From contig JAGVXY010000010.1 of the NCBI GenBank assembly GCA_018303545.1, forward strand, positions 65,643 to 107,014: a stretch of 41,372 bases of DNA, in the 5' to 3' direction. Shown piece after piece: positions 33,510-38,541 of this stretch (position 1 is the stretch's first letter; the number at the start of each line of letters is the position of its first letter). The position numbers and the translations under genes are program-made. The stretch comes from Candidatus Woesearchaeota archaeon. GTDB lineage: Archaea; Nanobdellota; Nanobdellia; SCGC-AAA011-G17; JAGVXY01. Below the pieces are notes generated by a model. That model worked only from the letters and a program-made list of their open reading frames with translations. It did not search any database and was not told the DNA's origin.

Positions 33510-35309
33510 ATGAATAAGAGGGGTGCAGTGTTTTTAATAGCTTTGTTCCTGCTAGTGCCTAATGTTTTTGCAAATATAGAAATAGATTCAGGATTGAGTA
33601 ATTCTTACAACTTAGGAGATTCATTAAGTATATCAGGAAGTATTACCTTGTCTGTAAATACAGATCTTTTTATGGAAACGGCAATGACTTGCGGTTCTTC
33701 TTCAAGAGTTATGATGCGAAAAGTTGTTTCTGTTTATTCTAACATACCAAAAGATTTCAATCAGACCTTACAGATTTTTGGCTTCGAATCTGGCACTTGT
33801 CAAGTGGATATTACATTAAAAGATGCAAACAATAGTTTTATTGAGACTTCATCATCAAATAATTTCGAAATTACAAAAAAATTGATAGGTCATTTTACAA
33901 AGAATAAAGAAAAGGCCCAATTAGGTCAATCTGTTAGTTATACTGGGGATGTTTTGACCCAAAGTGGAAAAAATGTAAATGGTTACGCTCTAATAAATCT
34001 AAAGCAGGGTGATGAAGTTTTCTATTCTGATTCAACGGATATAAAAAATGGGGATTTTACATTTGAAATAAAATTGGAAAGCTATCCTGCAGGTAAGGTT
34101 ACTTTTGAAGCTACTGTTTTTGATATTTATGGCAACTCCGGTATTTTCATCGATGAAAATGGGTTCGAAATAACTTCGTTATTAGAGATTAACCCTTCAG
34201 TAAAATCAACAGAGGTTCTGCCTGGAAAAGAAATTATGCTTTATGGCACAGCGCAGACAGAGCTTGAAGGTCAGATTTTTAATGGCGATTTTGAAATTTC
34301 AATTCTCGATGCCAATTACCGTTATAGTTTTGAAGGAAAAGATTTCAAATATGCATTATTACTTCCAAAAAATATTAAGTCGGGCACACATCAATTGCTT
34401 ATAAGACTAAGTGATAATTACGGCAATAAAGGTGAATCTTCAGTCTCAGTTATTATAACCCCCATTCTTACAGATATAACACACAATCTTGGGTCAATGA
34501 GTTTTCTGCCCGGAGAAACAATGAGGTTTAATCCCACGCTAGTTGATCAAGCAGGGGATATAATAAATGAAAAAATTAGTGTCGCTCTTTCGGATTCTAT
34601 TTTTGATTCTGAAGTAATGTCTGGTGAAAGCATAAGTATATTTATTCCAGGTAAAACTGATCCAGGGGTTTACAAATTATCTTTAATCTCAGGAAGCATA
34701 AGGAAAAAGTTTGATATCACCATTCTTGAAAAATCCGAAATTATGCCATACTTAGACGGCAATAATCTTGTCTTATCCAATGTGGGGAATATAAAATTTT
34801 CAGATATGGTTACGATTACATTTAATCAAGGAATACAGATAAAAGAATCCCTTTCCCTAAAACCAGGGCAAAATAAGACAATTGACCTATCTAATGGATT
34901 GGCAACAGGCCGTTATGACATTAAGGTTTCAGTAGCAGGCAAGGATCATGAATTTTCTAGCATAGATTTAATCAGCGCAGTACCATTCAAGTATAAGACC
35001 ATTGTAACTGCGATAATGATCTTGGTATTTATTATAATCTTAATAATTATGTTCCTTAAATTAAGGCGGGACCATATATCATTAAATAAATCAGGGTATG
35101 AATCAAGCATTCCAAGAAAAAAAATAACTCTTTTCAAGAAGCATTCTTCAGAAGTTCATCATCCTGCATCAAATCACGCACAGGGAATGCAAAAAAAACC
35201 TTACGTTAAACTTACAAAAGAGCAAGAAATCGAAGATTATAAGCGTACAATCCTAAAAGAGATAGAAAAAGTAGAAAGAGAATCTAAACGCGAGCGCGGC
35301 CTATTCTGA
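33510..35309 (+). CDS. Secreted/membrane-anchored Ig-like protein with cytoplasmic charged tail
   Basis: Signal peptide RGAVFLIALFLLVPNVFA; repetitive beta ectodomain; TM TIVTAIMILVFIIILIIMFL; TTTAAATA about 26 nt upstream of ATG. Confidence 0.75.
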   Translation: MNKRGAVFLIALFLLVPNVFANIEIDSGLSNSYNLGDSLSISGSITLSVNTDLFMETAMTCGSSSRVMMRKVVSVYSNIPKDFNQTLQIFGFESGTCQVDITLKDANNSFIETSSSNNFEITKKLIGHFTKNKEKAQLGQSVSYTGDVLTQSGKNVNGYALINLKQGDEVFYSDSTDIKNGDFTFEIKLESYPAGKVTFEATVFDIYGNSGIFIDENGFEITSLLEINPSVKSTEVLPGKEIMLYGTAQTELEGQIFNGDFEISILDANYRYSFEGKDFKYALLLPKNIKSGTHQLLIRLSDNYGNKGESSVSVIITPILTDITHNLGSMSFLPGETMRFNPTLVDQAGDIINEKISVALSDSIFDSEVMSGESISIFIPGKTDPGVYKLSLISGSIRKKFDITILEKSEIMPYLDGNNLVLSNVGNIKFSDMVTITFNQGIQIKESLSLKPGQNKTIDLSNGLATGRYDIKVSVAGKDHEFSSIDLISAVPFKYKTIVTAIMILVFIIILIIMFLKLRRDHISLNKSGYESSIPRKKITLFKKHSSEVHHPASNHAQGMQKKPYVKLTKEQEIEDYKRTILKEIEKVERESKRERGLF

Positions 35310-35745
35310 ACAAATCAAGTAAAGAAATTCTTCTTATTCTAGGCTTTTTATAATTAGAGACAATTTTTGGCCAATCATTCTTTAGAAATTCTTTTTCTTT
35401 TGCGATTAAATGCCCGAAGCCCTTTCTTATCATTTCTTTTTCGACTATTCCCCCTTTATGCGGATGCTTATACCTTTTTAGGTGGGGAGAGTTAAATCCA
35501 TGCATATAATGTACAAGTTCATGCGCTAAAGTTATTTCGATTATATAATCTGGAACTCGCAAATCTTTGAAAACCGCATTTATAACAATTTCCGTGTTCC
35601 CATCTTTAAGTTTTTTTATATGCCCAAATTTATTTCTCCATCTGCCCTTGAACTGCACATTAACCTGGTTCAATCTTTCCACTTCGGGAAACAGAAGAAT
35701 CCAAATTTGATCCAGTCTTTGTTCAAGCCACTTATTATCTCTCAT
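35284..35745 (-). CDS. SprT/YgjP-like zinc metalloprotease family protein
   Basis: IEITLAHELVHYMHGFNSPHLKRYKHPHKGG (HExxH). Confidence 0.75.
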   Translation of the reverse strand: MRDNKWLEQRLDQIWILLFPEVERLNQVNVQFKGRWRNKFGHIKKLKDGNTEIVINAVFKDLRVPDYIIEITLAHELVHYMHGFNSPHLKRYKHPHKGGIVEKEMIRKGFGHLIAKEKEFLKNDWPKIVSNYKKPRIRRISLLDLFRIGRARV

Positions 35746-35775
35746 AGAAAAATTAAATAAAAATAGGGGTTTAAA

Positions 35776-35829
35776 TTATTTTCCCTTTTTCTTTTTTTTC
35801 TTTGTTTGACAGCCACAAGTACCACACAT
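35776..35829 (-). CDS. 17-aa microprotein MCGTCGCQTKKKKKKGK
   Basis: ATG 35829, TAA 35776-35778; SD GGAGGTG about 8 nt upstream; TTTAAATA promoter element at 35870-35878. Confidence 0.6.
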   Translation of the reverse strand: MCGTCGCQTKKKKKKGK

Positions 35830-35979
35830 ATCTTCCACCTCCAGTTATCTACTAGATATATTGTTTTTTTATTTAAATCTTTTATGGTGTTATAATTATA
35901 TCTGAATATATCCGCGATAAAACTCTATGTATTTGCAAATTAGAAACTTTTATAATCATTATTACCTTATACTTATAAT

Positions 35980-36604: not shown

Positions 36605-36885
36605 TTGTAGGCTAGGCTGGCGGGCTAACCCTCCGCTGTTACTGCAAACGGGATACAATAGCAGGGTCGAAGTCCTTTAGGCGGTAGTTTCGTACATTGG
36701 AAGTCTTGGCTTCATTCCGTCGATCTCCTGTCCCAATTGGTCGGCATCTTTGGGAACCGGGTCAGGCTGGGAACAGAGCAGCCCTAACTGATCATACTGG
36801 CGCTTTTGGGGTCGCGGGAAGGAGGAACAGCCAGGGTTAAGCTTTCGAAGTGCGGTTCTATCCACTTTGGGACGTGCCTACTTTT
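36605..36885 (+). ncRNA. Signal recognition particle (7S) RNA
   Basis: Helix 8-like AACCGGGTCAGGCTGGGAACAGAGCAGCCCTAACTG; terminal pairing GTAGGC (36607-36612) with GCCTAC (36876-36881); higher GC than surroundings; TTTTAAAAA box about 30 nt upstream; T-run after 3' end. Confidence 0.88.
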
Positions 36886-36894
36886 ATCTTCAAA

Positions 36895-37197
36895 ATGATT
36901 TCAAGAATAGATATTTACAAGTTATTCGAACTGAAAAATTTAGTTCGTTCTGAATTTTCTGAGTTTGCGGTAGACATTCGCAAGTACGCAGGAAACCTAG
37001 ATTTAGACAAAGTTATGAAAGAAATCATCCATATCTGCGAGACAGAGGATTATTTCGCAGGCTCGCATATGTTCTGTACTAGAGAGAATGTCATACCGAG
37101 ATATAAGAAAGATAAATCTTTGGTTTTAGATGCAGACCATATAGAAGGATTATGTAAGCTGTTATTAATACATAAAAAAATAATAAAAGATTATTAG
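36895..37197 (+). CDS. Hypothetical protein
   Basis: MISRIDIYKLFELKNLVRSEFSEF...; start moved to ATG 36895 since upstream part overlaps SRP RNA. Confidence 0.6.
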   Translation: MISRIDIYKLFELKNLVRSEFSEFAVDIRKYAGNLDLDKVMKEIIHICETEDYFAGSHMFCTRENVIPRYKKDKSLVLDADHIEGLCKLLLIHKKIIKDY

Positions 37198-37647: not shown

Positions 37648-38541
37648 TTATTCCTCCTTTTTTAGATAATAATAGGCAGACCATGCAGCAACCGCTCCTT
37701 CCCCGCAGGCAGTTATTATCTGCTTGAATGGATTATCTGTTATATCCCCTGCCGCATAAATGCCATTAATATTAGTCTCCATTTTTTTATTTACTTTTAC
37801 ATAATTGTTTTCATCAAGCTTCACATCAACCTGTTTCAGAAGATCAGTAGAAGGAATGCTACCGATTTCAATAAATATACCATCCATCTTCACATTTTTT
37901 CCATTGTCAAGTTCTATTGCTTCTACAAATTTCTTGCCCATTATTTTAATAATATTCGCATTGTATATTATATGTATATTTTTTGCCTTATTCATGGTTA
38001 TTATATTCAGGGGTTCAGCCTTAAGTTTATCGCCCCTAGATATCAGATAGACATTCTTTGCATATTCAGCAATTAGAATGGCTGCCTTAACAGCAGAATC
38101 ACCGCTACCCGCAATGGCAACTTCTTTGCCCCTGTAAAGGGCCGCATCACAGCTGGCACAATATGAAACGCCTTTCCCCAAAAATTCATCTTCTCCAGGA
38201 ATATTCAATTTTCTTTTCTGCATTCCGGTCGTGAATATTATTACTCTCGCTTTATATTTTTTATTTGTTTTGGTTGTGATTTCTAAGTTTTTAGCTATAG
38301 CAATAGCTTCATCATAGATATTCTCAACTTCTTTGTATATGTCAAGATGTTTCTTGAACTTCATCATTAATTCAAAGCCTGAAACCCCCGGATAAGATGG
38401 AAAATTATCCACCTGCGGCGCTTTATTTGCAGTCCCGCCGATCTCTTTGGCAATCATCATGGTTTTAAGCCTGTATCTAGCGCAATATATTGCCGCGGTA
38501 ATTCCTGCAGGTCCTCCTCCGATTATTATTACATCATACAT
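37648..38541 (-). CDS. trxB: Thioredoxin reductase
   Basis: GGGPAGITAAIYCARYRLKT, redox CASCD, GSGDSA, YAAGDITDNPFKQIITACGEGA. Confidence 0.94.
   Translation of the reverse strand: MYDVIIIGGGPAGITAAIYCARYRLKTMMIAKEIGGTANKAPQVDNFPSYPGVSGFELMMKFKKHLDIYKEVENIYDEAIAIAKNLEITTKTNKKYKARVIIFTTGMQKRKLNIPGEDEFLGKGVSYCASCDAALYRGKEVAIAGSGDSAVKAAILIAEYAKNVYLISRGDKLKAEPLNIITMNKAKNIHIIYNANIIKIMGKKFVEAIELDNGKNVKMDGIFIEIGSIPSTDLLKQVDVKLDENNYVKVNKKMETNINGIYAAGDITDNPFKQIITACGEGAVAAWSAYYYLKKEE

Follow-up and report, generated by a model that had tools for sequence, protein, structure and literature searches.

Does an open reading frame (ORF) of 17 codons that begins with a HypB-like cysteine motif constitute a gene and, if it does, what might its product do? 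This question is raised by the minus strand of a 41,372-nucleotide stretch of DNA (the window, meaning the whole stretch that was analysed) from a Candidatus Woesearchaeota archaeon (contig JAGVXY010000010.1, positions 65,643 to 107,014). The answer favoured here, to which we give a probability of roughly 0.6, is that the ORF encodes a real microprotein that is translated and belongs to a recurrent type not described before, with MC-x2-CGC at the N-terminus and a short hydrophilic tail presumed to be unstructured, and that it serves as a minimal metal or thiol peptide. A literature search on CXXCGC found no description of such stand-alone peptides. The ORF and its signals are as follows.

35776..35829, minus strand: 17-codon ORF MCGTCGCQTKKKKKKGK plus TAA (from translation, like architecture in relatives, and selection in a related genus)
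35836..35842, minus strand: Shine-Dalgarno (SD)-like GGAGGTG, 6 bases 5′ of the ATG (from the sequence and a shuffle test)
35870..35877, minus strand: TTTAAATA, candidate TATA box ~45 bases 5′ of the ATG (from the sequence)
35746..35775, minus strand: T-rich intergenic stretch 3′ of the stop, candidate U-tract terminator (from the sequence)

The ORF behind GGAGGTG and TTTAAATA, which had been described in a sequence-only reading of this DNA, was confirmed in the sequence. When up to 3 mismatches were permitted, the combined SD and MCxxCGC pattern matched once in the window, and it matched in none of 100 dinucleotide shuffles; ATG followed by CxxCGC occurred a single time in the whole 0.9 Mb genome. 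Judged by the placement typical of TATA boxes in archaeal promoters, the spacing of TTTAAATA is consistent with a TATA box and a 5′ leader of ~20 bases, and the predicted promoter is plausible. The T-rich tract after the stop reads CCCCTATTTTTATTTAATTTTTC, and T-tracts were found 3′ of the stop in several relatives too; TTTAAA within this tract could also be a TATA box for the next gene. A hairpin terminator or attenuator was looked for in the window, and none was found.

Relatives were searched for with the seven-residue motif alone as anchor, leaving the SD element and the short hydrophilic tail free. Short ORFs of like layout were recovered from the same order and phylum, among them MCNTCGCGMTTKKKGKKKKK, MCNCCGCKTKKKAKKKKRR, MCDTCGCGEKEEKED, MCSTCGCKKKK, MCSCCGCKKRKKKKKR, MCG[ST]CGCGGKKGKK, and MCGTCGCSDEMKEKKGGKKKK. 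The architecture was present in 18 genomes of the window's phylum, and one family of the phylum had a member in 10 of its 19 genomes. In the draws left free of the SD, such an element preceded 12 of the 13 hydrophilic-tailed members, and the two features occurred together (both, 12; SD only, 0; tail only, 1; neither, 5; Fisher p=7e-4, with a tail-scoring rule that was set after examples had been viewed). What is conserved across the type is MCxxCGC, a ribosome-binding site, and a short hydrophilic tail. Moreover, four congeneric copies shared 78-95% identity across 63 bases (21 codons), whereas the 60 bases on each side were unalignable (28-47% identity). In these copies, the proportion of synonymous differences (pS) was 0.53 and that of nonsynonymous differences (pN) was 0.07; selection was measured in these relatives, the window copy having no close relative in the collection. 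Given this conserved coding island, its unalignable flanks, and a pN far below pS, we conclude that the type is a translated peptide under purifying selection, and it is very probable that the window ORF is itself a real translated microprotein. Conservation of the reading frame in relatives, set beforehand as the test of a free-standing microprotein with a HypB-like N-terminus (C2, C5, C7), was thus observed, and the proposal of such a microprotein is supported.

The same architecture was found in 1 of 156 Aenigmatarchaeota genomes and in 18 of 285 genomes of the bacterial Omnitrophota. The latter carry short forms (MCKSCGCSPKKKAKKKKKK, MCATCGCRSKPKKKAKKKKK, and MCKTCGCQDKKKPKPK) and a long form of 34-37 residues (e.g., MCQTCGCTPCKKCGKPVKNGVCSGCGKKSDECTCKK), in which 17 columns are invariant and nine of these are cysteines. 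This nine-cysteine microprotein, MCxxCGC[ST]PC.KCG...GxCxGC...CxC, was seen at L215, L216, L218, L219, L221-L224, and L228-L230. Pfam and NCBIfam scans of relatives of at least 20 residues, including the long forms, gave no model over cut-off, the window peptide being below scan length. The expected invisibility to annotation therefore held for family libraries in those longer relatives only, and annotation programs probably miss peptides of this type. A poly-Lys tail, which had been taken as a defining part, proved to be usual and not essential, as MCGTCGCGKESDEGGQ, MCGTCGCTPAEGDDSGG, and MCDTCGCGEKEEKED have acidic tails.

What, then, might the peptide do? In E. coli HypB, the N-terminal CXXCGC nickel site places its cysteines at residues 2, 5, and 7, counted from the start Met, with a Gly between the last two, exactly as in the window peptide. 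HypB Cys2, Cys5, and Cys7, together with the N-terminal amine, bind Ni(II) with a sub-picomolar dissociation constant (PMC7055735), and for the isolated peptides CTTCGCG and MCTTCGCGEG the association constants with Cu are 1-2x10^6 M^-1 (PMC6848105). From the HypB site and these isolated-peptide data, we infer that a free MCGTCGC peptide should be able to bind metal. Unlike HypB, the peptides stand alone at 11-23 residues and have neither a GTPase domain nor a His-rich stretch; the window ORF stops at TAA and is followed by an SprT-like gene.

Gene neighbourhoods were tallied at 14 archaeal loci against control regions of the same genomes, using the 25 commonest Pfam families per set. Flavin adenine dinucleotide (FAD) disulphide oxidoreductases were the commonest neighbours (4 of 14 loci), and ZIP, glutamate dehydrogenase, rubrerythrin, glutaredoxin, cupredoxin, ArsR, LGT, and PCYCGC each appeared twice. 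Archaeal control regions were led by tRNA synthetases, Nop, TPR, and transport families, and the redox and metal families were absent from their top 25. At L032 the ORF lies amid genes for rubrerythrin, desulfoferrodoxin, a rubredoxin-TPP-enzyme fusion, and cupredoxin, and then come glutaredoxin, an enzyme resembling thioredoxin reductase, NAD kinase, and glutamate dehydrogenase. Glutaredoxin is directly downstream of the ORF at two loci, including L040, which belongs to a different family from L032; L041 has a thioredoxin-reductase-like gene upstream together with Fur and ZIP, L136 a nearby YHS P-type ATPase, and L118 a VIT1 transporter. The Omnitrophota neighbours included desulfoferrodoxin twice, catalase once, and, at single loci, MsrA-MsrB, ferritin, and hemerythrin, none of which was among the leading families of the Omnitrophota controls. 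The recurrence of the peptide, often near redox, oxidative-stress, and metal genes, suggests a probable role as a minimal metal-binding or thiol peptide; a thiolate metal-binding or thiol role is, in our judgement, likely, while the odds that it is specifically tied to oxidative stress and thiol systems are about even. The genes beside the window ORF are given below.

35284..35745, minus strand: SprT-like metalloprotease (HELVH), 30 bases 3′ of the ORF (PF10263 E=5.8e-4, 20.1 bits, under the 25.6 cut-off)
37648..38541, minus strand: FAD oxidoreductase resembling thioredoxin reductase, with a CASC motif; same strand as the ORF, 1.8 kb upstream of it (PF07992 E=3.6e-47)

The thioredoxin-reductase-like class is the one also found near members L032 and L041. 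An archaeal signal recognition particle (SRP) RNA was located at 36605-36883 on the plus strand of the window (RF01857, 111 bits), overlapped by the listed ORF at 36677-36865 (minus strand) and by the beginning of that at 36850-37197 (plus strand). Among other loci, an LGT (prolipoprotein diacylglyceryl transferase family) gene lies near the ORF at L033, L034, and L118, representing two archaeal families, a putative thiol peroxidase gene was noted near L214, and the protein at L231:4360-4908 is DUF3786. Glutaredoxin was also considered as a fixed partner and rejected, as only 1 of 30 glutaredoxin loci (L200, previously found) had an MCxxCGC ORF upstream. At L199 (genome G105), a variant small ORF, MCGNNCSDDKGEISGQ, preceded by GAGGTG, lies ~250 bases upstream of a glutaredoxin motif; the same genome carries MCGTCGCGKESDEGGQ.

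In the mechanism that we propose, a single soft or borderline metal ion, whether Cu(I), Ni(II), Zn(II), or Fe(II), would be held by the cysteine trio, alone or together with the N-terminal amine, in a manner modelled on the HypB N-terminal site. Small and diffusible, the peptide would buffer or chaperone metal and act as a redox-active thiol; thioredoxin-reductase and glutaredoxin systems might keep it reduced, and it could help the cell when oxygen or metals cause stress. Also very small, and also bearing CxxC-type motifs, are the haloarchaeal C(P)XCG zinc-finger micro-proteins such as HVO_2753 and HVO_0758, of which some bind zinc and others most likely Co or Ni (PMC11241148). These have two C(P)XCG motifs and four Cys, whereas the window peptide, which is far shorter, carries its three Cys in a single CxxCGC; the Omnitrophota long form has more. 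Metallothioneins are small and Cys-dense, as is the nine-Cys, 36-residue Omnitrophota form, but the window form differs in having three Cys only, and a metal-thiolate cluster in its monomer is unlikely. Among the long forms, one matched the metallothionein model PF12749 below threshold (15.7 bits, cut-off 22), the window peptide being too short for the scan.

Several observations weigh against a metal or thiol peptide. Distribution is patchy (~3% of phylum genomes), and clear redox genes are lacking at L035, L036, L038/L039, and L043/L044. The neighbourhood is a functional trend and not fixed synteny; tallies limited to 25 families per set and a post hoc reading make it a trend rather than proof. 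Isothermal titration calorimetry of the isolated HypB peptides with Ni or Zn yielded no isotherm in the conditions used (PMC6848105). The metal, partner, expression, redox cycling, and stress role of the peptide are putative. Finally, the first Cys is at position 3 in variants MSCGCCGCGTKKTKKKATKKKTKK and MPCSTCGCKAKKKKKK, so that a Cys2-plus-amine site is not strictly needed and the N-terminal geometry is not fixed. A strict Cys2 requirement was abandoned when a shifted-pattern control gave three more short Lys-rich members; in these ORFs, at L412, L413, and L415, the motif is shifted inward by one residue (MSCGCCGCGTKKTKKKATKKKTKK, MPCSTCGCKAKKKKKK, and MRCGCCGCEEKPKTVKK...).

A stronger version of the metal or thiol peptide reading would make MCxxCGC peptides ribosomally made low-molecular-weight thiol/metal cofactors, the gene-encoded counterpart of glutathione or bacillithiol, which TrxB and glutaredoxin partners would recycle in DPANN archaea and Omnitrophota and which phages would carry too. 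We regard this version as doubtful. Slightly more doubtful is a nucleic-acid- or ribosome-associated mini zinc finger, in which the cysteines would fold around zinc and the Lys tail would bind RNA or DNA. Tails are mostly Lys-rich, and in Omnitrophota the long form bears additional CxxC-type pairs and is predicted by AlphaFold to adopt a small fold (mean predicted local distance difference test score 80). However, several members have acidic or neutral tails, the acidic ones disfavouring nucleic-acid binding as a general role; the short form's three cysteines leave one zinc ligand open; and a structure search with the 36-residue long form gave no significant match (best E=3). A PDB sequence search also returned nothing significant, the best match being METP (E=0.23).

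It is unlikely that the ORF is a regulatory leader peptide, whose Cys-rich or Lys-rich ORF, as it is translated, would sense cysteine, metal, or redox state and attenuate the next gene. Its short length, the T-tract 3′ of the stop, the SprT-like gene closely downstream in the window, and glutaredoxin or glutamate dehydrogenase closely downstream at some loci would fit such a role. Yet the downstream gene is on the opposite strand at L034, L041, and L172, and on this ground the leader peptide was rejected; a conserved same-strand gene directly downstream was not found, as downstream genes elsewhere differ between lineages and are unrelated. Moreover, the ORF is the last in its same-strand gene run at L034 and L041, the window has no attenuator hairpin, and selection acts at the amino-acid level.

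Slightly less probable still is a phage-derived peptide retained in cellular genomes, with a function belonging to the phage cycle. Among the matches listed from viral contigs were many SD-preceded MCxxCGC small ORFs, such as MCATCGCKKSKPKPSKPKGGR, which adjoins a CHAP-domain protein, and MCTACGCGLKDKKDPGYGKGPAKKKAAPAKKAAPKKK. Against this, the window and the examined cellular loci have ordinary cellular genes beside the ORF, and some phage versions lie near a ferritin-like gene, so that phages may themselves have borrowed a stress gene. At ~20 residues, shared descent of viral and cellular peptides is not demonstrable; tblastn of two viral versions, both very short queries, against GenBank phage records gave no match. 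Viral examples include those at L290, L292, L340, and L351, one set near the ferritin-like gene and another beside the CHAP-domain protein.

A chance ORF is highly improbable: in its favour are the very small size, the ease with which an AT-rich genome yields Lys codons, and the fact that the collection has no close relative of the window copy, but the shuffles, the recurrence with SD across many genomes, and the low pN in relatives rule chance out for the peptide type. Least probable of all is a detached HypB N-terminus serving [NiFe]-hydrogenase maturation, since, despite the identical cysteine spacing and a sub-threshold match of one relative to NCBIfam HypB_prefix_2 (18.5 against a 35-bit cut-off), HypB (TIGR00073) exceeded cut-off in 0 of the 19 genomes searched, HypB-bearing relatives in the phylum draw keep the motif fused to the GTPase, and hydrogenase genes are not among the leading neighbour families; the supposed link to HypB biology is thereby largely refuted.

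Taken together, a minimal metal or thiol peptide remains the reading that we favour. In DPANN archaea, comparative genomics can pick out genes of 11-21 codons, which fall short of the lengths that annotation usually accepts. The finding also provides a concrete, testable peptide (CGTCGCQTKKKKKKGK), a natural stand-alone version of a well-studied nickel- and copper-binding motif in organisms without HypB above cut-off. If it is a metal or thiol cofactor, it would go some way to explaining how such small cells cope with oxygen and metals.
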